From Actinopolymorpha cephalotaxi (GTDB taxonomy: Bacteria; Actinomycetota; Actinomycetes; Propionibacteriales; Actinopolymorphaceae), in assembly GCF_013408535.1 (NCBI RefSeq), contig NZ_JACBZA010000001.1, positions 1,758,850 to 1,822,849 on the forward strand: 64,000 nucleotides of DNA, written 5' to 3'. The notes under the pieces were generated by a model. It was not told the origin of the DNA, ran no database searches, and saw only the letters and a program-made list of their open reading frames with translations. The position numbers and the translations under genes are program-made. Shown here in pieces: positions 1,481 to 53,722 of this stretch (within the stretch, counting starts at the first letter, position 1; each line of letters opens with the position of its first letter).

Positions 1481-2982
1481 CGTCCCTCGGTGCCGCCACC
1501 CCCGACCTCGCCGGCTTCCGCGACCTCGCGCCCGGGCGCCGGGTGATCCCGGTGACCCGCAAGCTGCTCGCCGACGCCGAGACCCCCCTCGGCGTCTACG
1601 CCAAGCTGGCCCGGGACGAGCCGGGCACGTTCCTGTTCGAGTCGGCCGAGCACGGCGGGGTGTGGGGGAGGTACTCCTTCGTCGGCGTACGTTCCGCGGC
1701 GGTCCTCACCGAACGCGACGGCCAGGCGCACTGGCTGGGCAATCCGCCGGTGGGGCTGCCCGAGGGTGGCGACCCACTGGCCGCCGTGCAGGAGACGGTG
1801 GCCCGGCTGCACACGCCACACCTGCCCGGCTTGCCGCCGCTGACCGGCGGGCTCGTCGGCTACATCGGCTACGACGCGGTACGCCGGCTCGAGCGGCTGC
1901 CCGACCTCACCACCGACGACCTGGGGCTGCCGGAGCTGGCGCTGATGCTGGCCACCGACCTCGCGGTGCTGGACCACGTGGACGGCACGGTGCTGCTGAT
2001 CGCCAACGCGGTCAACTGGGACGACACCGGCGAGCGCGTCGACCAGGCCTGGTCCGACGCGGTCCAGCGGCTGGACGCGATGACGAAGGCGCTCGCCCAG
2101 CCCACGCCGTCGTTCGTGGCGGCCGCCGATCTGCAGGCCCCGCCCGCCTACGAGCGCCGGCGTTCCGCCGAGGAGCACATGGCGGCGGTCGAGCAGGCCA
2201 AGGAGGAGATCCACGCCGGCGAGGCGTTCCAGGTGGTCGTGTCGCAGCGGTTCGAGCGGGCGACGACGGCCCGGGCGTTCGACATCTACCGTGTGCTGCG
2301 CTTCTCCAACCCCTCGCCGTACATGTATCTCCTGCGCTTCGGCGACTTCGACATCGTGGGTTCCAGCCCGGAGGCGCTGGTGACGGTGACCGGCGAGCGG
2401 GCGCTGACGCACCCGATCGCGGGCACCCGGCCGCGTGGCGGCACGCCGGAGGAGGACCACGCGCTGGAGCAGGAGCTGCTCGCCGACGAGAAGGAACGCG
2501 CCGAGCACCTGATGCTGGTCGACCTGGGTCGCAACGACCTCGGCCGGGTCTGCGCGCCGGGCAGCGTCGAGGTGGTCGACTTCATGACCGTACGCAGATA
2601 CAGCCACGTCATGCACCTGGAGTCCACGGTGGTCGGCCGGCTGGCACCGGGCCGGACCGCCTTCGACGCCCTGTGTGCCTGCTTCCCGGCCGGCACGCTC
2701 TCCGGTGCGCCGAAGCCGCGCGCGATGGAGATCATCGAGAAGCTCGAACCCACCAGGCGCGGGCTGTACGGCGGGGTGGTCGGCTACCTCGACTTCGCCG
2801 GTGACCTGGACGCCGCGATCGCGATCCGCACCGCCTTGCTACGCGACGGTGTGGCGTACGTCCAGGCCGGCGGGGGCATCGTGGCCGACTCCGACCCGGC
2901 GGCCGAGGACGCCGAGACCCGCAACAAGGCGGCCGCGGCGCTGCGCGCGGTGGCGGTGGCGGAGACGTTCCGGACGCCGTGA
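1477..2982 (+). CDS. trpE: Anthranilate synthase component I
   Basis: TrpE converts chorismate to anthranilate using ammonia supplied by TrpG, the first step of tryptophan synthesis. The 501-residue protein has the N-terminal regulatory lobe with [19 protein letters not shown], where tryptophan feedback acts in this family, and a chorismate-binding C-terminal lobe with [37 protein letters not shown] and [14 protein letters not shown]. The GTG start overlaps the hisI stop by 4 bases. No trpG or trpD lies in the window, so the amidotransferase subunit must be encoded elsewhere. The next gene overlaps again, making a three-gene operon. Confidence 0.96.
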
Positions 2983-3656
2983 CCTCCGAGACTCCCGTGA
3001 ACCCCACGACTCCCGCGCCCTCCGCGTCCCCGAAGCAGGCCGCCCGGCGGCAGTTCTTCGTCGCCCTCGCACTGGTCCTCGGCGGCGCGGCGCTCGTGCT
3101 GTGGGCCGCGGGCCGCACCTGGCTCGCCGCCCGGTGGGCGATTCCGAACTACCCCGCGGTGCACACCTCGGTCACCGGAGCGCAGGCCGCCCCGCTGGCT
3201 CGCTCGGCCGGCTTCCTCGGGCTCGCCGGAGTCCTCGCGGTGCTGGCCACCCGGGGCCGCGGCCGCCAGGTCGCCGGCGGGCTGGTCGCGCTGGCCGGGG
3301 TCGCCGCGGTCGCCTCGGCCGTGACCTTCTGGACCCGCGCCGGCGCCGTCGCGGAGGCGGCGGTGCGCCGGGCGATCGCCGGGGGCGCGGGAACCGGCGG
3401 CGGGGGCAGCGACGGAGCGACCACGGCGACGGTCCAGGCCTGGCCCTGGCTCGCGGTGGCCGGCGGCCTGCTCGTCGTGGCCGGAGGTGTGCTGGCGATC
3501 GCGCGTGGTCGGACGTGGCCGGCGATGGGCAGCAGGTACGACGCACCGGCGGCCCGGCGTACCAACGACGACCCGTGGGCCGCGCTGGACCGCGGCGAGG
3601 ACCCCACGGATCCCGCGGACCCCCCGAGTCCCACCAACCCCACCCAGCGTGACTGA
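2979..3656 (+). CDS. Trp-region conserved membrane protein (TIGR02234-like)
   Basis: This 225-residue protein has four predicted hydrophobic segments (roughly residues 25-46, 70-90, 100-117 and 158-178) and a soluble C-terminal tail ending with SRYDAPAA...[14 protein letters not shown]. That tail pattern is typical of a membrane protein found beside trp genes in many actinobacteria. Its biochemical role is unknown; a part in tryptophan or precursor transport has been suggested only from context. The GTG start overlaps the trpE stop (GTGA), showing tight coupling. Confidence 0.85.
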
Positions 3657-3746
3657 TCGGCAGCCCCGCGGCCGGACGACCCCGGCTCGCCGGTGATCGG
3701 GGCCCGCGACACAATGAGACACGGTACGGAACAGAGAGGGTCGGCC

Positions 3747-4058
3747 ATGAGCGAGTTGAGCGCCACGAACGACGAACACCGGCACGAGAACACCACCCAG
3801 GCCCACCACGGCAACACCCCGGCGGCCTGGACGACCGTGGGGCTTCTGCTGGCCACCTCGGTGGTCGCCGGCCTGGCGGTCGTGATCGGCAACTGGTGGC
3901 TGTTCTTCGTCAGCGCGATCGGTGGAACGCTGATCTCCCTGCTCGCCGGCAAGGTCCTGCACGTCATGGGCCACGGCGGCCCGCGCGTGCCCCGGCACAG
4001 CCCGGCCGAGGTGCGGCAGATCGCGGAGGACTCCGCTGAGAGCAGCCAGGTCTCCTGA
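3747..4058 (+). CDS. HGxxPAAW family small membrane protein
   Basis: A 103-residue protein with the eponymous motif HGNTPAAW at about residues 21-28, then two adjacent hydrophobic segments (about 29-48 and 51-71) and a His/Pro-containing tail. The family is widespread in actinobacterial trp neighbourhoods and has no established function. The ATG at 3747 follows a purine-rich GAGAGG about 8 nt upstream. It lies 90 bp after the trp membrane protein, so it may share its transcript. Confidence 0.83.
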   Translation: MSELSATNDEHRHENTTQAHHGNTPAAWTTVGLLLATSVVAGLAVVIGNWWLFFVSAIGGTLISLLAGKVLHVMGHGGPRVPRHSPAEVRQIAEDSAESSQVS

Positions 4059-4739: not shown

Positions 4740-4830
4740 GGGCAGAGATTCTGCTGTCCTGGAAGGAAAAACTGCAGTCTTGTTCTTGTCCCGCCCGGGA
4801 TGGTTGATTGGGCGTACGGAAGGCGGTCGG

Positions 4831-5472
4831 CTACGCCCGGCCCAGTTCCGTACGACACCATGCCGCCAGCGCGCCGACGTCGACCGGCCCGGTGGTGTCC
4901 ACCCGCAGCACCGGTCCGATCGCCAGCGGCCGGCCGTCGGCGACCATCGCCGCCCACTCCGGCTCGGAGATCCGGGCGCCGTGGATCCGGTGCCGGTCCG
5001 CCCACCGGGCCCGGTCGCGGTCGTAGGAGACGCCGGCGGGTACGTCGCACCAGATCTCGATCGCCCGCGTCACCCTCGCCCGCGCCAGCCCGGCCTGGAC
5101 GAGCGGGCGTACGTCGGCTCGCCACGAACTCTCCAGCACCGCTCCGAGTGGCGCGTCGGCGAGCAGCGCCCACATCGTCTCGCTGGCGGCCCGTCCGAGG
5201 GTGGCGTTCCAGGCCCGCTGCGGCCGGTCGTCGGGCGGGTGCACACCGAGGACGTCCGCGTGCGTCTCCTTGATGACGTCCTTGGCGAACAGCGGAAGGC
5301 CGAGTGCCCGGGCCAGCCGCGGGGCGAGTGTCGACTTGCCGGAGGCGGGCAGACCGTTGACGAGGATCGCGGCCCGGCAGGCGACCGGAGCGGGAGCTGC
5401 CGGCCCCGGCGCCCCCGGATCGGCGGTCGCGGTGGCCTCGCCGGTGGGATCGGGTGCGCGGGAGCCGGTCAC
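4831..5472 (-). CDS. AAA-family P-loop kinase (zeta-toxin/chloramphenicol-phosphotransferase-like fold)
   Basis: A 213-residue protein with Walker A GLPASGKST near residue 40, followed by a substrate-binding region (FAKDVIKETHADVLG) and a conserved SSWRADVRPLV segment. This is the pattern of small-molecule kinases in the AAA_33 group. The GTG start at 5472 is chosen because a -10-like TAAACT sits 8 nt upstream on the minus strand and no Shine-Dalgarno is present; longer in-frame starts would run through the divergent Lrp gene. The N-terminal 25 residues are low-complexity. The substrate is unknown. Confidence 0.62.
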   Translation of the reverse strand: MTGSRAPDPTGEATATADPGAPGPAAPAPVACRAAILVNGLPASGKSTLAPRLARALGLPLFAKDVIKETHADVLGVHPPDDRPQRAWNATLGRAASETMWALLADAPLGAVLESSWRADVRPLVQAGLARARVTRAIEIWCDVPAGVSYDRDRARWADRHRIHGARISEPEWAAMVADGRPLAIGPVLRVDTTGPVDVGALAAWCRTELGRA

Positions 5473-11551: not shown

Positions 11552-12274
11552 GTGAGTACACCGACCCCGCCGGGTCCCGACGCACGCGACGAGGACTCGT
11601 CCTCGGGACGGCACGGTGCTCCGCAGCCTCAGGATCCCTACGGCCGGCAGGCCCAGGGTCACGGCGGCCAGCAGGGCTACGGCCAGCAACAACAACAGAG
11701 TCACGGCCAGCAGCCGGGATACGGTCAGAGTTACGGCCAGCACCAGCAGCAGTACGACCAGGGCCAGCAGGGTCAGTACGGCCAGCAAGGTCAGTACGAC
11801 CAGGGTCAGTACGGTCAGTACGGCCAGAACGGCGGCACGCCCGAGATCGACCGGAACCTGCTCGCCCCGTGGGTCCTTCGCCTCGGCGCCTACCTCATCG
11901 ACGGGGTGGTGGTCTGGATTCCCGGTGCCATCGGCTCGGCGCTGATGGCCGGCATGCAGTCCGGTGGCCAGCCGTCCGGGGCGGCCACGGCGATCGGCTC
12001 GGTCCTGTACCTCGTGAGTCTCGGCATCAGCATCTGGAACATCGTCTTCCGGCAGGGCACCACCGGCCAGAGCATCGGCAAGCAGGTGCTCAACATCAAG
12101 CTGGTGCGTGAGTCCGACGGGCAGCCGCTGGGTCCGGGCACGACGTTCGTCCGGTCGCTCGCGCACATCCTGGACGCACTGCCCTGCTACGTCGGGTTCC
12201 TCTGGCCCCTGTGGGACAGCAAGCGCCAGACGTTCGCCGACAAGCTGATGCACAGCCTGGTCATCAAGCTGTAG
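11552..12274 (+). CDS. RDD family membrane protein with Q/G/Y-rich N-terminal tail
   Basis: A 240-residue protein in two parts. Residues about 28-95 are low-complexity, dominated by Gln, Gly and Tyr (repeats such as GQYGQQGQYDQGQYGQYGQ), which is prion-like or phase-separating in composition. Residues about 105-240 form an RDD domain with LAPWVLRLGAYLIDGVVVW, TTGQSIGKQVLNIKLV and a C-terminal FADKLMHSLVI, spanning two or three membrane helices. RDD proteins have unclear roles in transport or ion homeostasis. The GTG start follows CGGAGACGG. Confidence 0.85.
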   Translation: MSTPTPPGPDARDEDSSSGRHGAPQPQDPYGRQAQGHGGQQGYGQQQQQSHGQQPGYGQSYGQHQQQYDQGQQGQYGQQGQYDQGQYGQYGQNGGTPEIDRNLLAPWVLRLGAYLIDGVVVWIPGAIGSALMAGMQSGGQPSGAATAIGSVLYLVSLGISIWNIVFRQGTTGQSIGKQVLNIKLVRESDGQPLGPGTTFVRSLAHILDALPCYVGFLWPLWDSKRQTFADKLMHSLVIKL

Positions 12275-12279
12275 AGGTC

Positions 12280-12350
12280 GTGCGGGCGGCGGACGGACAG
12301 GTCCCGGCGGGCGACCGCCCGGGGTCCGCGCCGTCGCCCGCACGGGTTTT
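12280..12350 (+). terminator. Terminator-like hairpin after the RDD gene
   Basis: GTGCGGGCG (12280-12288) can pair with CGCCCGCAC (12335-12343), with further imperfect pairing between. GGGTTTT follows at 12344-12350, giving a short T-run. It lies in the 291-bp gap before trpC. Confidence 0.45.
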
Positions 12351-12504
12351 CGCACTGATTCCAGCCTGGTTCCAGTCCTGGGCCGGGCTTGACCCACACC
12401 CCTCCGCCGTGCGGGCGACCGTGCACGGGAGGGCCCCCGACAGCCAGCCGGTGTCGGGGTTGGGGGAGGTCGTCGTTACTCTGAGCAGGTCTCTGGAAGC
12501 GAGA

Positions 12505-12530
12505 GCGGGTTCGTTTCACCGAAGACCCGC
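12505..12530 (+). other. Small hairpin in the trpC leader
   Basis: GCGGGTTCG (12505-12513) can pair with the CGA...CCCGC side ending at 12530. It ends about 20 nt before the ribosome site GGAAGGA of trpC. No tryptophan-rich leader peptide with a believable start was found, so an attenuation role is not supported. Confidence 0.25.
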
Positions 12531-12565
12531 GCCTGCGCTTAGGTCGCTCAGGAAGGACTGACTGC

Positions 12566-13369
12566 GTGAGTGTTCTCGACGAGATCCTCGACGGGGTCCG
12601 CGCCGACCTTGAGGAGCGGCAGGCGAGAGTCTCGATCGACGATCTGAAGAAGCGGGTCGCCCTTCTTCCGTACGCCATCGATCCCGTCCCGGTTCTGCGG
12701 GGCGACGGCGTCGCCGTCATCGCGGAGGTCAAACGGTCGAGTCCGAGCAAGGGCGCCCTCGCCGCGATCGCCGATCCGGCCGCGCTCGCCGCCGACTACC
12801 AGGCCGGCGGGGCCGCCGTGATCAGCGTCCTCACCGAGCGCCGTAGGTTCGGCGGCTCGATCGACGACCTCCGGGCGGTGCGTTCCTCGGTGGACGTTCC
12901 GATCCTCCGCAAGGACTTCGTGATCACCAGCTACCAGCTGTGGGAGGCGCGCGCCTACGGCGCCGACCTGGTGCTGCTCATCGTGGCCGCGCTGAAGCAG
13001 AACGCCCTGGTCTCGCTGATCGAACGCGCGGTGTCGATCGGCCTCACCCCCCTGGTGGAGGTGCACACCGAGGAGGAGGCCGAGCGGGCCGTCGACGCGG
13101 GCGCCAAGCTGATCGGCGTCAATGCCCGTGACCTGCGCACTCTCGAGGTCGACCGGGCGGCGTTCGGCCGGATCTCGCCGCGGATCCCGGACGGTATCGT
13201 CAAGGTGGCGGAGTCCGGCGTACGCGGTCCGCACGACGTGATCGAGTACGCCCGCGCCGGTGCCCACGCCGTCCTGGTCGGCGAGAGCCTGGTCACCGGG
13301 AAGAACCCCCGGTCCGCGGTGGCCGACCTCGTTGCCGCCGGCGCCCATCCGGCGCTGCACCATGACTGA
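12566..13369 (+). CDS. trpC: Indole-3-glycerol phosphate synthase
   Basis: TrpC closes the indole ring, making indole-3-glycerol phosphate from CdRP. The 267-residue TIM-barrel protein has [14 protein letters not shown] (catalytic lysine region), [35 protein letters not shown] and [12 protein letters not shown]. It is a stand-alone TrpC without TrpF fusion. GGAAGGA precedes the GTG by 8 nt. It is followed by trpB and trpA in the same direction. Confidence 0.96.
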
Positions 13370-22876: not shown

Positions 22877-22884
<8 letters not shown>

Positions 22885-24361
22885 CCCGAAGGGCTTCCTC
22901 ACCACCCCCCGCGAGGGAGCGCACCGAAGGCCGGTCGAAGAACGGCTTCGCGACTGGAACGAGGTCTACCCGGGCGAGGGGATCGGCGCCGCGCTGTTGC
23001 CGATCATCAGCAAGCAGGCCGGGCGCTGCATGGACTGCGGTATCCCGTTCTGCCACCAGGGCTGCCCACTCGGCAACCTCATCCCGGAGTGGAACGACCT
23101 GGTCTGGCGCGACGACTGGCGCGCCGCCATCGAACGCCTGCACGCGACGAACAACTTCCCCGAGTTCACCGGCCGGTTGTGTCCCGCGCCGTGCGAGACG
23201 GCCTGCGTGCTGGCGATCGACGAGACCATCTCCGGTGGTCCGGTGACCATCAAGAACGTCGAGGTCTCGATCATCGACCGCGCCTGGGCGCAGGGCTGGG
23301 TGACTCCGCAGCCGCCGGAGTGGCTGACCGGCCGGCGCGTGGCCGTGGTGGGTTCGGGACCGGCGGGGCTGGCTGCGGCGCAGCAGCTCACCCGGTCCGG
23401 GCACACCGTCGCTGTGTACGAGCGGGCCGACAAGGTGGGCGGGCTGATGCGGTACGGCATCCCCGAGTTCAAGATGGAGAAGCGGATCGTCGACCGGCGG
23501 CTGGACCAGATGTCGCGCGAGGGCACGATCTTCCGCTCCGGCGTCAACGTCGGCGTGGACGTGACCGGCCAGGATCTCCGCGCCCGTTACGACGCGGTGG
23601 TGCTGGCGATGGGGTCGACGATCCCGCGCGACCTGCCGATGCCGGGCCGCGAGCTCGGCGGCATCCACCAGGCGATGGAGTTCCTCCCGCAGGCCAACCG
23701 CGCCGCCCACGGCGAGGAGGTGCCCGGCCAGATCACCGCGCACGGCAAGAACGTCGTCATCATCGGCGGTGGCGACACCGGTGCCGACTGCCTGGGTACG
23801 GCACACCGGCAGGGCGCGGCGAACGTCGTACAGCTGGAGATCATGCCGCAGCCGACGGAGATGCGTCCGATGCATCAGCCGTGGCCGACGTACCCGATGC
23901 TGTTCCGCGTCTCCAGCGCGCACGAGGAGGGCGGCGACCGTCGGTACGCGGTGTCGACGACGGAGTTCCTCGGCGACGACAACGGCAACGTGCGTGCGCT
24001 CAACCTGGTCGAGGTGAAGTTCGAGAACGGCCGCTTCGAACCCGTCCCGAACACCGAGGTGGAGATCCCCGCCGAGCTGGTGCTGCTGGCGATGGGGTTC
24101 GTCGGTCCCGACCGTGGCGGCCTGCTCGAGCAGCTCGAGGTGGAGCTGGACGAGCGGGGCAACATCAAGCGGGACGCGTCGTACGCGACGAACGTCGAGG
24201 GTGTGTTCGTGGCCGGAGACGCCGGGCGCGGCCAGTCGCTGATCGTCTGGGCGATCGCCGAGGGCCGCGCGTGTGCGGCCGGAGTCGACGCGTGGCTGCG
24301 GGACGGGCACACGGCCCTGCCGGCGCCGATCAAGCCGACGGATCGTTCACTGGTGGTCTGA
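22877..24361 (+). CDS. gltD: Glutamate synthase small subunit
   Basis: GltD is the FAD/NADPH subunit that passes electrons to GltB. The 494-residue protein has N-terminal cysteine clusters for 4Fe-4S centres ([17 protein letters not shown] and CPAPCETAC), an FAD-binding [13 protein letters not shown] and an NADPH-binding [18 protein letters not shown], then [18 protein letters not shown] near the C-terminus. The ATG at 22877 lies inside the end of gltB and is preceded by ATGGAGG. Confidence 0.97.
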
Positions 24362-24586: not shown

Positions 24587-25192
24587 ATGAAGATTCTGTA
24601 CGGCAAATCAGCGCTGGTTCGCGGCGCGCTCGCCGGCGCGGTTGCCGTCGGCTTGGGCGTGTCCGGGTGCAGCAAGAACATCGAACCCGAGGCCGGCAAG
24701 ACGCCGACCCCCACGGCGTCCAAGTCAGCCACCCCCACCCCGACACCAACCCCTACGCGAACGCCGGCTCCCACGCCGACGGCTCCCACCGGCTCCGTCG
24801 AGGAGCAACTCCACGCCGCCACCGTCAACTTCTACGCGGTCCTCAACGAGGCTTACAAGACCCTCGATACAAGGCCAGTTGATGAGGTGCTGCTGCCAGG
24901 CTCCAATGCAGCAAGTGGCTACACGGACTTTATTCACGATGTAAAAAAGAAGAACCAGCATTTTACATTTGAGGGCGGCTACAAGATTAGCAATTTCGAG
25001 GTTAAAAGCACTTCGTCGAAGGAGTCTACACGCGTCGAATTCGATCTCGATCACGGTCCGGGGCAGGTGCGAAATACTGCGAACAAGGTAGTGATGAAAA
25101 TCCCGCAGACCCCGCCCTCCAGGGCTTGGATTGTCTTTTCGAAGAGAGGAAACAAATGGCTTGTCGTTGGACAAGACTTCCTCGATGGGTAA
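24587..25192 (+). CDS. Lipoprotein of unknown function with low-GC C-terminal domain
   Basis: The 201-residue product starts MKILYGKSALVRGALAG and has a lipobox, GLGVSGC, at about residues 20-26, so it is likely a lipoprotein. A Thr/Pro linker (PTPTPTPTRTPAPTPTAP) at about 45-65 leads to a ~130-residue domain ending with WIVFSKRGNKWLVVGQDF, which resembles NTF2-like or SCO-type small extracytoplasmic domains but is not firmly recognised. The DNA changes sharply after the linker: 24901-24960 has 26 G+C of 60, against over 65% in flanking genes. An alternative ATG is at 24578. A -10-like TACGGT at 24572-24577 precedes it. It overlaps the next gene by 37 bp. Confidence 0.7.
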   Translation: MKILYGKSALVRGALAGAVAVGLGVSGCSKNIEPEAGKTPTPTASKSATPTPTPTPTRTPAPTPTAPTGSVEEQLHAATVNFYAVLNEAYKTLDTRPVDEVLLPGSNAASGYTDFIHDVKKKNQHFTFEGGYKISNFEVKSTSSKESTRVEFDLDHGPGQVRNTANKVVMKIPQTPPSRAWIVFSKRGNKWLVVGQDFLDG

Positions 25193-26067
25193 TGGTCGTA
25201 GCGCTGTCCATCGCCGTGACCTCAGCACTATTACTGATCAACGCTTCATCCTCGGACGCCAGTGAGAGCCTGTCGAAATGTAGGGGATTCAAGTGTCCGA
25301 CGAAACCACCCCCACCGCCAGGTCCGGTGCCTGGCCCTCCAGATGGTGGCGACGGTAGGTTCACGGGGCAGGCAGCTCTGCTGACCAAAGACGGAGCAGT
25401 GGTTGACTCAGGTGCGGGTTCGTCATGTTCAGATTGCATTTGGAACTTGCGGAAGTCGTGCGAGATGGGCGGCCGGACCGTCTGCCGTCGAATCTTGCAG
25501 TGTGGAGTAAACCCAGACGGCACAGTGAAGTACTTCTACGACATTTATCTACTGAGAACCGGAAAATCGTGGCAGTTACGCGACACTGTTTGTTTGGGTG
25601 ATCCATCCGATGTGGTGACTACGGCGGACGTGGGAGCGGAGGTTCGTAAGAACTGGGAAGTGTGGGTGCCTCCGCAGCAGCTTTCGGTTCAGCCTGCTAA
25701 CGCGCGAACATTGGTAAATCTGCCGACGTACTTCCAGTCCGGTCAGCCGCAGCAGATGCCGGCGAAGACCGTGCACGTGTTCAACTTCGACGTCACGGTG
25801 ACGGCTGAAGGCGAGTGGAAGTGGACGTTCGATCCCGGTGTCACGAAGACGTTCGACACCCCCGGCAGCAGTTACGACGACTCCGACCCGAAGGTGAGCT
25901 ACACCTACGACAAGGCGGGGTCTCGGTCGGTGCAGTTGAACACCAGTTGGCACGGCCGGTTCAGCGTCGGAACATATGGTCCGTACGACATCGCACAGCC
26001 TGCTGTACAGGGGCCTGGCCAGATCGACCTCGAGGTCGTCGAATCCGGACCGGTCCTCGGCCGCTGA
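25156..26067 (+). CDS. Secreted protein with PKD-like C-terminal region, low-GC N-terminal half
   Basis: The 303-residue product has a basic N-region (ACRWTRLPRW), a hydrophobic signal core and a probable cleavage site after INASSSDAS. It continues with a Pro-rich linker (KPPPPPGPVPGPP), a cysteine-containing segment (SSCSDCIWNLRKSC, then CRRILQCG) and a C-terminal beta-rich region resembling PKD-type folds (VTVTAEGEWKWTFDPGVTKT, KVSYTYDKAGSRSVQL). Function is unknown. ATG 25156 follows AGAGGA; an alternative ATG at 25192 would give a TAATG junction with the upstream gene but no basic N-region. GC is low up to about 25740 and normal afterwards. Confidence 0.68.
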   Translation: MACRWTRLPRWVMVVALSIAVTSALLLINASSSDASESLSKCRGFKCPTKPPPPPGPVPGPPDGGDGRFTGQAALLTKDGAVVDSGAGSSCSDCIWNLRKSCEMGGRTVCRRILQCGVNPDGTVKYFYDIYLLRTGKSWQLRDTVCLGDPSDVVTTADVGAEVRKNWEVWVPPQQLSVQPANARTLVNLPTYFQSGQPQQMPAKTVHVFNFDVTVTAEGEWKWTFDPGVTKTFDTPGSSYDDSDPKVSYTYDKAGSRSVQLNTSWHGRFSVGTYGPYDIAQPAVQGPGQIDLEVVESGPVLGR

Positions 26068-26157: not shown

Positions 26158-27351
26158 TCAGCCGTCAATGGCGTAGAGGCGGCGGGCGTTGTCGGCTCCG
26201 ACCATCGCCGCCACACGTTCTGTATCGCGTGCGGTGAGGTCGCCATCTCGCCACCAGTCGCGGAGAAGCCGGCCGAACGAGTGCCGGAACTGTGCCGCTC
26301 CGACCAGATAGCGCTCGGGCAGTCGATAGGCGTCGGTGGAGAACATCAGCTTGCCGAACGGCGCGAGTTCGCAGAACTCCGCCAGGACGGCACCTGCCCG
26401 AGCCCCGACCTGGCCGACCGTGAGCCCGACGTCCACGTAGACGTGCGGATAGACGGCGGCCAGCCAGCCGGCCTCACGCTGGTACGGATAGCAGTGCAAC
26501 AGCACGAGCGGCGTACCCACCGGCTCCACGGCCTCGATGAGCGGTTGTAGCAACGCGGGGTTGACAGACGGCAGGCGCAGGTCGCGATCACCGAATCCGG
26601 TGTGCAGCTGCACCGGAAGGCCACGATCGACACCGCACCACAGCACGAACCGCAACAGCACCTCGTGACGCAGCCGAGCCGCGGCCGGTCGACTCTCGGT
26701 CCCGCTCTGAGGAATGCCGAGGTCCCGGCGGCTCAGCAACCAGTCCCGCGCGGCGGCAGTGACCTCCGCGCGTGACGGTCGCCGAGGGTCGACGTCGAAG
26801 CCGTGCCGGTATCCGAGGATCGACTTCACCGCGACCGCGTTCCTGGTGGCCGTGGCGAGCGCGTCGACGTACGCATCGGCGAAGTCGGTGGCGGCGACCC
26901 CGGATTCCGCCAGGCCCTCCACAACCGACTCCAGCCGGACCACTTCCCGGCCCACAGCACCGGCCGCCGACGCGAGCCCCCGCACCGACCACCAGTCCGA
27001 GCCGGCTCCGTCGGTCCCGCCGATCCCGGTGTCGACCAGCAGGTACGACAACCCGGCGGCGCCGAGCAGTCGCCGAGCCACCTCCACCGGCCCGAGCTCG
27101 GCCCGCCGGTCCAGGAAGGTGTCCAGGGGAGCGCCGGCCGGCAGCCCGAGCGGGGGAGTGCACCAGCGCCGGACCGCGGCTCCGAGCAGGCTGTCGGCGT
27201 ACGACACACCGACCGGCGCGGGCCGGTCGGCCTCGCCCAGCATGCGTTCGAACTCGGCCCGCTCCTGCCCAGAAACTCCGGCCGATCCGACGAACACCGG
27301 GTGACAGTGGGCGTCCACGAGCGGGAGGTCCGCCAGCGGGAGATCGGCCAT
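26158..27351 (-). CDS. Amidohydrolase family protein (FluG N-terminal-domain-like)
   Basis: A 397-residue metal-dependent hydrolase. It shows LVDAHCHPVF at the N-terminus (metal-binding His-x-His), the mid-domain QLHTGFGDRD, LVLLHCYPYQREAGWLA and the late aspartate in FGKLMFSTDAY. The ATG overlaps the stop of the upstream glutamine-synthetase-like gene by one base (TGATG) and has GGAGG 7 nt before it. In fungal FluG and some plant and bacterial proteins these two domains are one polypeptide, so they probably act on one pathway, perhaps hydrolysing a gamma-glutamyl conjugate. That role is inference. Confidence 0.82.
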   Translation of the reverse strand: MADLPLADLPLVDAHCHPVFVGSAGVSGQERAEFERMLGEADRPAPVGVSYADSLLGAAVRRWCTPPLGLPAGAPLDTFLDRRAELGPVEVARRLLGAAGLSYLLVDTGIGGTDGAGSDWWSVRGLASAAGAVGREVVRLESVVEGLAESGVAATDFADAYVDALATATRNAVAVKSILGYRHGFDVDPRRPSRAEVTAAARDWLLSRRDLGIPQSGTESRPAAARLRHEVLLRFVLWCGVDRGLPVQLHTGFGDRDLRLPSVNPALLQPLIEAVEPVGTPLVLLHCYPYQREAGWLAAVYPHVYVDVGLTVGQVGARAGAVLAEFCELAPFGKLMFSTDAYRLPERYLVGAAQFRHSFGRLLRDWWRDGDLTARDTERVAAMVGADNARRLYAIDG

Positions 27352-28730
27352 CAGTACCTCCACCGGGTGGCGGCGACGACCTCCTCCTCGTCCGCCCCGG
27401 CGAACAGGTCGGCCTCGGCCCGGCGAACGGTGGCGAACGTGTCGAGCAGCGGCGCGCCCAGCGCCTCACCCAGCACCTCGTCCTCCTCCAGCAGGTCCAC
27501 CGCGGCGAGCACCGACTGCGGCAGCCGAGGAGGCCGGCGTTCCTCCGGGAGGGTCGCCGGGTCGACGGTCACCTCGGGCGGCAGCGGCCGGCCGGCGTCG
27601 ACACCGGCCAGGGCGACGGCGAGTACGGCACCGACGACGAGGTACGGATTGGCGCTCCCGTCGACGCACTTGAGCTCGGCGTTGGCGGCCCGGGGCTCAC
27701 TGCCGCGGGTGCCGGTGACCAACCTCAGCGCGGCCTCGCGGTTCTCCCGTCCCCAGCACTGGTAGGGCGCGGCCCACTGCTGCGGGACCAGTCGCAGATA
27801 ACTCGCCACGCTGGGTGCGGTCAGAGCGCACAGCGCGGGCATCCGGGCGACGAGTTCGGCGAGGATCGACTCGCCCCGGTCGGTGAGCCCGTGCGGTCCG
27901 TACCCTCCGACGAACAGGTTCTTCCCCTGCGCCCACGCCGAGAAGTGCAGGTGCGCGCCGTTGCCGACCGCCCCGGCCTCGACCACGGGAGCGAACGACG
28001 CGCGCAGCCCGTGCGCCCGCGACACCGCGCGGATCGTCTCCCGGACCAGCACGTAACGGTCGGCGGCGCCGACGGGATCGGTCGGGGCGACGGAGAGCTC
28101 CAGCTGACCGGGCGCGTACTCCGGATGGAACTGCTCGACCGGCACCCCCTGCGCATCCAGCGCCGACAGCAGTGCGGGCACGTAGTCCGCCAGGTCGGTG
28201 AGCCGCGACATGCCGTACGCCGGACCCGGCGCGCCCGGCTCCATGTCGTTCTCCGACCCCAGCACACCGACGTACCACTCGATCTCGAACGCGCACCGGA
28301 AACCCACCTCGCGCTCGGCGGCGATCGCCGCCATCCGCTGGGCGAAGGACCGCTGGCACATCGGGTACGGCTCGCCCTCCTGGGTCAGCCGGTCGACCGG
28401 CGCCCACGCCCACCCCGGCTGAGCCGACAACGAACCCACCCGCTGCAGATCCGGGTACAGGCGAAGGTCGCCGACCGGGCCACCGGCGTGCCGGCCGGCG
28501 GTGATCGAGTCGTCCACCAGGAAAACGTCGAACACCGGGGACATCCCGACACCCCAGCCGGCGGCGTCGGGCAGCCGGTCGACGGGAACGGTCTTCACCC
28601 GCGTGACCCCGGCGTTGTCGATCCAGGTCAGTGCCACGACGCGCACGTTGTCCTCGGTGAGCCGGGCGGTGAGTTCCTTCGCGTACGCGATCCGACGGGT
28701 TCGCTGGTCCGGGTCTGCCACGGATTCCAT
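27351..28730 (-). CDS. Glutamine synthetase-like gamma-glutamyl ligase (FluG C-terminal-domain-like)
   Basis: The 459-residue protein has the glutamine synthetase fold: N-terminal beta-grasp (VRVVALTWIDNAGVTRVKTV), catalytic Glu region FEIEWYVG, the ATP/glutamate loop VGNGAHLHFS and the C-terminal ELKCVDGSANPYL. It lacks the adenylylation-tyrosine region of GlnA, as expected for GlnA-like ligases that join glutamate to amines. Its substrate is unknown. It is co-translated with the amidohydrolase. A -10-like TATAGA 6 nt before the ATG at 28730 supports this start; a GTG three codons later is an alternative. Confidence 0.85.
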   Translation of the reverse strand: MESVADPDQRTRRIAYAKELTARLTEDNVRVVALTWIDNAGVTRVKTVPVDRLPDAAGWGVGMSPVFDVFLVDDSITAGRHAGGPVGDLRLYPDLQRVGSLSAQPGWAWAPVDRLTQEGEPYPMCQRSFAQRMAAIAAEREVGFRCAFEIEWYVGVLGSENDMEPGAPGPAYGMSRLTDLADYVPALLSALDAQGVPVEQFHPEYAPGQLELSVAPTDPVGAADRYVLVRETIRAVSRAHGLRASFAPVVEAGAVGNGAHLHFSAWAQGKNLFVGGYGPHGLTDRGESILAELVARMPALCALTAPSVASYLRLVPQQWAAPYQCWGRENREAALRLVTGTRGSEPRAANAELKCVDGSANPYLVVGAVLAVALAGVDAGRPLPPEVTVDPATLPEERRPPRLPQSVLAAVDLLEEDEVLGEALGAPLLDTFATVRRAEADLFAGADEEEVVAATRWRY

Positions 28731-52886: not shown

Positions 52887-52973
52887 TGCGTGCGTGTGCC
52901 GACCGGGATGGCGTCTCGACCGCAGTGGGTGCTTCGACAGGGGTGGTGGGCGGGAGGCGGAGAGCCTCGGGGC

Positions 52974-53075
52974 CTACTCACCGCGGCGCGGCCGGCCGAG
53001 CGCGAAGGCGAGGTTGACTCGTGTCTACCCGCCGCGGCGCAGCTGGCCGAGCGCGAAGGCGAGGTTGACCACGAT
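52974..53075. repeat. Tandem 51-bp duplication of a gene 3' end
   Basis: Unit B (53025-53075) is the last 17 codons, including the stop, of the minus-strand gene. Unit A (52974-53024) lies just beyond the stop and is nearly identical over its first 45 bp, with four differences, including an equivalent TAG. Unit A would encode VNLAFALGRPRRGE* against VNLAFALGQLRRGG* in the gene. Confidence 0.9.
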
Positions 53076-53375
53076 GATCCCGATCCACGCCAGAAGCAGG
53101 CCGTCCCGCCCCGCGAAGTTGGCGGCGATGGCAGACAGCGGGATCGCCACTCCGAGCGAGACGATCGCCAAAGCCAGCGCGTGGCCGTCGTCCCTGCGCG
53201 CCGCGGGCGCGGAAGTCCTTGCCCGCTTGACCTCCTGGGCCACCCGCGCCTCGATGGCGGCGTCGATGCGTTCGACGAAGGAGTCGACGACGGCCGGCTC
53301 GAAGTCGGCACCGAGCTCGTTGCGGGCGTGCAGAGCGGCCTCGGCCTCGTCACGAGGAACGCGCGGTTCGGGCAT
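53025..53375 (-). CDS. Conserved two-helix membrane protein of unknown function
   Basis: A 116-residue protein. The N-terminal half is hydrophilic and helical (PEPRVPRDEAEAALHARNEL, AVVDSFVERIDAAIEARVA), and the C-terminal half has two membrane helices (about residues 68-85 and 93-110). Similar proteins are common in actinobacteria without assigned function. ATG 53375 is chosen because TATAAC lies 6 nt upstream on the minus strand; an ATG at 53393 would overlap that box. The 3' end is tandemly duplicated downstream. Confidence 0.72.
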   Translation of the reverse strand: MPEPRVPRDEAEAALHARNELGADFEPAVVDSFVERIDAAIEARVAQEVKRARTSAPAARRDDGHALALAIVSLGVAIPLSAIAANFAGRDGLLLAWIGIIVVNLAFALGQLRRGG

Positions 53376-53722
53376 GTCCCCGTTATACGGCATCGGTGCC
53401 CGGCGAAGCGATGGAAAACTCGGAGCAGCTGACCAGGAGCGACGCCCCGGGCCACCCGACGCCGGCGGCCGGCGAACCATGCCGACTGCCGGCGAACCGC
53501 GAGTGTGGAGCAGACCACCACGAGAGTCGTACGACCCGGACGTTCGTGACCACCGGACGAGCCGGACGGGACGGACATGACGGGCGGCGGTGATGCGAAA
53601 ATCCCGGCCGCCGATCGCACCCGGGTCCCCGCCTGAGTCCCCGCGTGGATGTCCGCGCCACCTCCCGGCCGGGGTTTGGTCGTGCACTGTCCCGATCTCC
53701 TTCCGTCGGCAACACTGGAGGG
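53376..53722. other. Intergenic region without a supported gene
   Basis: This 347-bp stretch carries the divergent promoter of the membrane protein (TATAAC, minus strand, 53387-53382) and, at its right end, AACACT (53711-53716) 6 nt before the next gene. Two copies of CCGGCGAACC lie near 53471 and 53490. Short open frames here have no recognisable features. Confidence 0.5.

Follow-up and report, generated by a model that had tools for sequence, protein, structure and literature searches.

Judged from alignments and site patterns, the C-terminal domain of a predicted lipoprotein and the N-terminal half of its secreted partner, encoded by the adjacent gene, make up a single block; its allele classes are shared across species boundaries and remain matched to each other. 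By the same comparisons, the outer half of each gene tracks the species tree. We consider it probable that the pair is a two-gene specificity cassette, and we include an antagonist and protector role in this reading as the likeliest one.

The two genes and their neighbourhood

The pair lies between gltD and an amidohydrolase gene in the window, which here means the whole 64-kb stretch of DNA that was analysed. The features of the locus are listed below by their position in the window; G000 is the window genome, and G001, G002 and G004 are close species of its genus.

22880–24361, plus strand: left flank, gltD, glutamate synthase small subunit, after gltB (Pyr_redox_2, Fer4_20)
24587–25192, plus strand: lipoprotein gene, 201 amino acids; signal peptide, lipobox GVSGC, Thr/Pro linker and C-terminal NTF2-like domain (predicted); divergent DUF6318
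24587–24796, plus strand: conserved left shoulder, codons 1–70 with signal peptide, lipobox and Thr/Pro linker; amino acid identity 0.81–0.90, dS 0.23–0.49
24785–25189, plus strand: NTF2-like domain (predicted fold), the lipoprotein part of the putative cassette; codons 106–201 diverged
24800–25340, plus strand: core of the putative cassette, with an incongruent tree (G000+G004 against G001+G002)
25156–26067, plus strand: secreted partner gene, 303 amino acids; signal peptide, variable N-half and conserved PKD-like C-half, with the start inside the lipoprotein gene
25260–25600, plus strand: variable N-half of the partner, placed by amino acid identity; Pro-rich tether and Cys-containing part
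25601–26064, plus strand: conserved PKD-like C-half, right shoulder
26158–27363, minus strand: right flank, amidohydrolase (Pfam), followed by glutamine synthetase-like, ABC ATPase and pyruvate kinase genes

The first-pass annotation had placed a low-GC segment across the junction of two exported-protein genes. Two such genes are present, but they overlap by 37 bases (24587–25192 and 25156–26067), and the overlap of the open reading frames (ORFs) recurs in relatives. The start of the secreted-protein gene, judged by eye, is most likely the ATG at 25156, after a AGAGAGGA stretch.

The lipoprotein matched DUF6318 (PF19843) with an E value of 0.0015 and 19.2 bits, below the gathering cut-off of 23.8, whereas its relatives in two other genera of the same order (g5 and g8) scored above the Pfam cut-off. 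Its translation contained the lipobox GVSGC and the Thr/Pro linker, and its C-terminal domain of approximately 130 amino acids was as in DUF6318 lipoproteins encoded beside PKD secreted proteins; this anatomy is described from relatives and is not Pfam's definition of DUF6318. Since the weak profile match, the anatomy and the neighbour agree, the protein is best regarded as a divergent DUF6318 relative and not as a curated member.

The PKD profile was weak in the window partner (E 0.096), but 16 of 30 family members matched it (best E 2.4e-7). No toxin or enzyme signature was found in the window partner by Pfam, NCBIfam or PADLOC, and a nuclease-type profile matched weakly in 1 of the 30 family members (E 0.004). 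Neither window protein matched the defence models of PADLOC, and a sequence search of the PDB with the PKD family gave no match. Of 198 genomes drawn evenly from the phylum, 5 carried DUF6318, the window genome among them. In a genus other than g5, 118 genomes were sampled and 106 had a PKD match. The literature search found no described function or exchange for DUF6318, no hypervariable lipoprotein in Kribbella and no NTF2-like lipoprotein immunity protein in Actinobacteria. One PKD protein of g5 had three weak plasmid matches.

Conserved flanks and a diverged block within the genus

The same-genus set consisted of the window genome and G001, G002, G003 and G004, with one genome per species in the comparisons. 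Relatives' records in this genus include Actinopolymorpha rutila, A. pittospori and A. alba. The order gltB, gltD, lipoprotein, PKD protein, amidohydrolase, glutamine synthetase-like, ABC and pyruvate kinase was common to G001, G002 and G004. G003 had the same order, but its PKD gene was frameshifted and a second lipoprotein was present.

In the four close species, gltD had an amino acid identity of 0.95–0.98 and a dS of 0.12–0.16. In codons 106–201 of the lipoprotein, silent sites were saturated or nearly so (pS 0.59–0.83 over six pairs). Amino acid identity in these codons was 0.34–0.40 between {G000, G004} and {G001, G002}, and within the classes it was 0.64 (G000/G004) and 0.86 (G001/G002). 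The partner N-half had identities of 0.38–0.78 over the first segment compared and 0.63–0.73 over the Cys-containing part. Between-class identity in 100-bp windows was 35–73% from 24800 to 25400. In the PKD-like C-half, identity recovered to 0.88–0.94, yet the dS of 0.53–0.83 exceeded that of gltD. The first-pass annotation had suggested comparing strains for conserved flanks around a variable middle, and this comparison was positive both here and in g5 (see below).

The pS of the worst 60 codons was 0.89 and 0.86 in the two genes, the highest among 50 window ORFs (a greedy choice that includes some doubtful ones); the next value was 0.45 and the median 0.27. Gene-level protein identity did not single out the pair, which ranked only 8th and 12th lowest of the 50, with several of the ORFs ranked below it being doubtful or without sequence in one genome. 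By lowest mean identity in 300-bp windows, the block took ranks 2 and 4 of 213. Positive selection in place was rejected as a sufficient cause, since the silent sites were nearly saturated too.

Ranks 1 and 3 of the 213 windows (4801–5400) were low only in pairs with G002; this stretch is present in G000, G001 and G004 and apparently absent from G002. Other fast-diverging ORFs were found at 52890–53432 (plus strand), 12187–12750 (minus strand) and 2784–3998 (minus strand), with approximately 50–58% coverage-weighted protein identity in relatives. These three had no Pfam match, and none ranked in the top 14 for silent divergence.

The topology also changed inside the block. Informative sites outside 24800–25600 grouped G000 with G001 and G002 with G004 (751 sites, compared with 282 and 297 for the other two splits). 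From 24800 to 25340, 49 sites grouped G000 with G004 and G001 with G002, a split with 297 sites outside the block, compared with 19 and 6 for the alternatives (Fisher p = 8e-15, odds ratio 6.8, with sites taken as independent). The stretch 25341–25600 was mixed (8/9/11 sites), and the C-half reverted to the flank topology (18/5/7). The eight 300-bp windows richest in the G000+G004 split in the 64 kb had starts at 24601–25501. By eye, the more distant G003 had a lipoprotein of the GGREVD type and a partner with a WACLGC start, both as in G001 and G002, and G000 and G004 had common other types in both genes. These results support the earlier suggestion that an internal cassette, encoding a domain of one protein and the N-terminal half of its partner, was exchanged. 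An exchanged block is present, but its limits by sequence comparison are approximately 24800–25340, ragged to approximately 25600, and not the 25740 first given. An artefact of one bad assembly was rejected on the agreement among four species.

The window genome contains two further copies of the pair (G000:C1:2151229-2152604 and G000:C1:4088815-4090304), and neither had a variable block in the four close species. Nucleotide identity was at least 0.69 in 200-bp windows through these genes, and their lowest 890 bp had GC contents of 0.661 and 0.640, with no deep dip. Variability was therefore rejected as a general property of the pair, since two copies in the same genome had no collapse of identity.

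Further arrangements were observed at the gltD locus. In A. pittospori (L072 / L113), the PKD gene was split by frameshifts with intact lipoproteins on either side; the partner was apparently lost or misassembled and the lipoproteins kept. In A. alba (L084:7250-11160), the pair was absent and a DUF6318 lipoprotein ended a run of genes in which one product was YbaB-like (E 2e-12) and another was only marginally EspC-like (E 0.0064, below the cut-off). Beside this run was a plus-strand ORF labelled by eye as exported and substrate-binding-like. We regard the run as a lead towards secretion-linked conflict systems. A small protein of A. alba (L084:9762-10226) had a sub-threshold similarity to a glutamine-deamidase-like family (E 0.089), which is probably due to chance.

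Recurrence in two other genera

In g5, the pair was mostly located near ppk, and the same 33 of 38 genomes carried both the lipoprotein and the PKD gene. For L119 and L123, the closest of seven aligned genomes, the flanks were 0.97 (upstream) and 0.95 (downstream) identical, compared with 0.57–0.58 across the junction and a return to 0.87–0.90 in the PKD C-half. Across 28 genomes, the outer halves were correlated with ppk (lipoprotein signal peptide, r = 0.70; PKD C-half, r = 0.66). The inner halves gave r = 0.03 (p = 0.23) for the lipoprotein domain and r = 0.18 (p = 0.004) for the PKD N-half. The domain and the N-half were correlated with each other (r = 0.58, partial 0.59, p = 0.0005), compared with 0.05 for the domain and the C-half.

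One lipoprotein class of g5 (class W) was found in 9 of 29 genomes, with 8 changes on the ppk tree (mean of shuffled labels, 7.9). The partner carried a WG.[TS][VIL] motif in 8 of the 9 class-W genomes and in none of the 20 others. The class-W genome without the motif was G062. G036 had two pairs, in each of which the lipoprotein was class-W-like and a WG motif was present. Among seven independent pairs, 6–7 were concordant for class and motif and none was opposite (sign test, p = 0.016–0.031). The motif was chosen post hoc from the sequences, but the Mantel tests are independent of it, and in the 19 non-W genomes the domain and the N-half were likewise correlated (r = 0.70, p = 0.0005).

For the 29 pairs of g8, the comparison covered the two inner halves and the C-half, without a flank or species-tree control. 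The domain and the N-half were correlated (r = 0.72), compared with 0.34 and 0.31 for either against the C-half, and the pair of loci with the most similar C-halves had unrelated inner halves.

Orphan lipoproteins and predicted structure

The g5 genomes contained 47 DUF6318 matches and 34 PKD genes. The 13 lipoproteins in excess of the pairs all lay next to a PKD gene and occurred in 8 of the 33 pair-bearing genomes. Their class differed from that of the resident lipoprotein in 10 of 13 cases, and random sampling of the class pool would give approximately 9. This closeness suggests that most orphans did not arise by recent duplication of the resident gene, and it does not prove a protective role. 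By analogy, the g5 orphans resemble orphan immunity arrays. No orphan was seen at the window's own locus.

The lipoprotein domain is confidently predicted to have an NTF2-like fold, with a curved beta sheet and packed N-terminal helices (AF2 model, pLDDT 93). Among the best 50 matches listed, solved NTF2-like structures aligned with model residues 2–135 (approximately) at Z scores of 10.3–14.0, and a Foldseek match to 5u9o had an E value of 6.3e-6. The closest solved folds among the matches listed were those of ARC6 (5d9r, Z 14.0) and PARC6 (6jzn, Z 13.5), from the intermembrane-space domain; Z scores for the PARC6/ARC6 domains spanned 12–14. The ligand of PARC6 and ARC6 is a terminal peptide. 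In g5, the N-half of the partner was tether-like and carried short class motifs. The sequence identity to PARC6 and ARC6 was only approximately 10–13%, and a common NTF2-like fold does not show function. The available part of the source describes the PARC6 and ARC6 domains as binding PDV partner proteins (PMC6974557). The model of the PKD protein was of low confidence (pLDDT 48) and was not used.

A putative specificity cassette

The simplest route of exchange would be homologous recombination of the block through the conserved shoulders, with the signal peptide and linker on the left and the PKD half on the right. The NTF2-like domain, anchored on the outward side of the membrane, would bind its own secreted partner through the N-terminal segment of the latter and would bind other classes poorly, so that only matched pairs would work. 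Diversity would be kept through rare-type advantage, i.e. negative frequency-dependent selection, as in self/non-self systems. By analogy, long-kept trans-species alleles that are co-inherited in a narrow block are a mark of recognition systems under such selection, examples being fungal het genes (PMC11138114) and bacterial communication groups (PMC6334282). The PKD protein may act on neighbours, with the lipoprotein neutralising or tethering the cell's own version, and the lone extra lipoprotein genes downstream would be spare protection.

Polymorphic toxin and immunity systems, such as those of the Vibrio type VI secretion system, are similar in having a matched neighbouring pair, exchange and downstream protector copies in the account available (PMC5361080). 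Matching and exchange of the pair, together with orphans that resemble immunity genes, were also found here (r = 0.58 in g5 and 0.72 in g8; 13 orphans). Unlike in those systems, the variable part is the N-half of the partner and not a C-terminal toxin domain, and no toxin domain was recognised in the window partner. MafA/MafB share the placement of a lipobox protein upstream of a secreted partner, but the MafA/MafB lipoprotein is invariant according to the excerpt available (PMC3482391). The same excerpt lists NTF2 folds and, exceptionally, a lipoprotein among immunity proteins (PMC3482391). Because of the orphan lipoproteins and these NTF2-fold and lipoprotein precedents, a role as antagonist and protector (immunity) is ranked first and is perhaps the most likely one.

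Fungal heterokaryon-incompatibility (het) genes also have trans-species alleles with a narrow footprint (PMC11138114, part of the text); the proteins are unrelated, and the resemblance is limited to the evolutionary pattern.

More broadly, we tentatively suggest that the pair may represent a widespread, undescribed self/non-self system of actinobacteria of this order, in which the membrane-anchored lipoprotein reads a class-specific segment in the N-half of its partner, the two specificity halves are arranged head to tail in one exchangeable block, and alleles circulate between species under rare-type advantage. If so, a protein family without a known function would become a matched specificity pair, and the recognition system would be present in 33 of the 38 g5 genomes. 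Natural allele swaps would be at hand, as sisters approximately 97% identical on the upstream flank carry different classes, and the block of a few hundred bases would be a bacterial example of trans-species alleles.

Other explanations

An arms race with phages or predators, in which the complex of lipoprotein and partner on the surface is a docking site and swaps of the exposed parts evade attackers, is unlikely, although it comes first among the alternatives. Both proteins are exported to the surface, and trans-species alleles with narrow diversity would also fit frequency-dependent selection driven by enemies. However, neither window protein matched a defence model, a PKD protein of g5 had one weak partial match in a phage record, and there is no special reason under this explanation to keep orphan lipoproteins of another class, which would provide extra docking sites. 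The phage record (MT835671.1, 14883–15347; human faecal samples, unannotated) was 30% identical to part of the C-half of that g5 protein.

The halves could also match without any protein contact, recombination being unable to start inside a diverged block. If crossovers need the similarity of the shoulders, the inner halves would be matched only as an unrecombinable unit, with no interaction between the proteins. The divergence within the block (35–73% identity between classes) would indeed hinder inner crossovers, and the mixed topology at its right side (8/9/11) is expected where homology remains. Linkage of this kind explains neither why diversity has been kept for so long in so narrow a stretch nor the recurrence of diversity in these two halves at different loci of more than one genus. 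Moreover, the sequences are decoupled between lipobox and domain (median distance 153 nt) but coupled between the lipoprotein stop and the partner motif, which lie about as far apart (median 162 nt). We therefore regard simple linkage as improbable, just behind the arms race in rank.

A role as signal and receptor that sort cells into communication groups, with the partner N-terminus as the signal and the lipoprotein as its reader, would be a poor candidate. The anatomy is similar to that of comQXP of Bacillus subtilis, in which comQ, comX and the 5' end of comP are poorly conserved (PMC6334282, available part). Staphylococci have a hypervariable agrB-agrC region in the text available (PMC6834553). 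As far as these excerpts go, both share with the present pair a variable block across neighbouring genes and matched specificity (PMC6334282, PMC6834553), but they consist of a peptide signal, a processing protein and a sensor kinase, whereas only two exported proteins are present here. No secreted peptide signal of the pherotype kind and no membrane sensor kinase were found at the window locus, where the neighbours are gltD and the amidohydrolase gene. Apart from the export signal, no signalling part was seen in either protein. The neighbourhood changes from genus to genus, with gltD here and ppk near the pair in most g5 genomes, so no conserved response partner is seen. The pherotype of B. 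subtilis is strongly correlated with phylogeny in the portion of the source at hand (PMC6334282), whereas the lipoprotein class is scattered on the ppk tree.

Low GC content of the segment

The low-GC segment of the first-pass annotation (24850–25740) is real, with a GC content of 0.541. The lowest 890-bp stretch of the window was 24830–25719 (0.539; window mean 0.711), and the next lowest separate stretch had 0.628. The count of 26 G+C in 24901–24960 was exact. GC3 fell from 0.80 (codons 1–66) to 0.64 (codons 67–201) in the lipoprotein gene and rose from 0.58 (codons 1–135) to 0.74 (codons 136–303) in the secreted-protein gene; these steps place the change behind the Thr/Pro linker and before the PKD-like half, as had been described.

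The dip was at the same place in 4 of 4 same-genus orthologues, with lowest 890-bp values of 0.564 (G004), 0.543 (G001), 0.545 (G002) and 0.576 (G003). Mean GC3 in 28 g5 genomes was 0.743 for the lipoprotein domain, 0.707 for the partner N-half, 0.819 for the PKD C-half and 0.934 for ppk; the corresponding values for the 29 g8 pairs were 0.737 (domain), 0.715 (N-half) and 0.931 (C-half). The GC3 of the lipoprotein domain was lower than that of ppk in 28 of 28 g5 genomes and lower than that of the PKD C-half in 29 of 29 g8 pairs. The partner N-half was lower than the C-half in 27 of 28 g5 genomes and 29 of 29 g8 pairs. The difference was absent from some family members, e.g. L111, L086 and L087.

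Recent import of low-GC DNA as the sole cause was rejected on the shared dip and the family-wide low GC3: a single cassette from a distant donor would account for a GC of 0.54 against 0.71 in this genome, but with the dip position shared by 4 of 4 orthologues at the locus and lower GC3 frequent in the family (g5 and g8), it is very improbable. The low GC of the segment is thus inherited and common; with the dip present in all four orthologues, it marks the alleles and not one recent import, and it does not serve as the sign of exchange for which it had been taken. Relatives with the same sequence and a low GC by descent had been named as evidence against exchange; the low GC was found in them, but not the same sequence, as the alleles differ strongly. 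Inside the dip, the GC content returned to 0.61–0.62 at 25200–25500, where a Pro-rich stretch is encoded.
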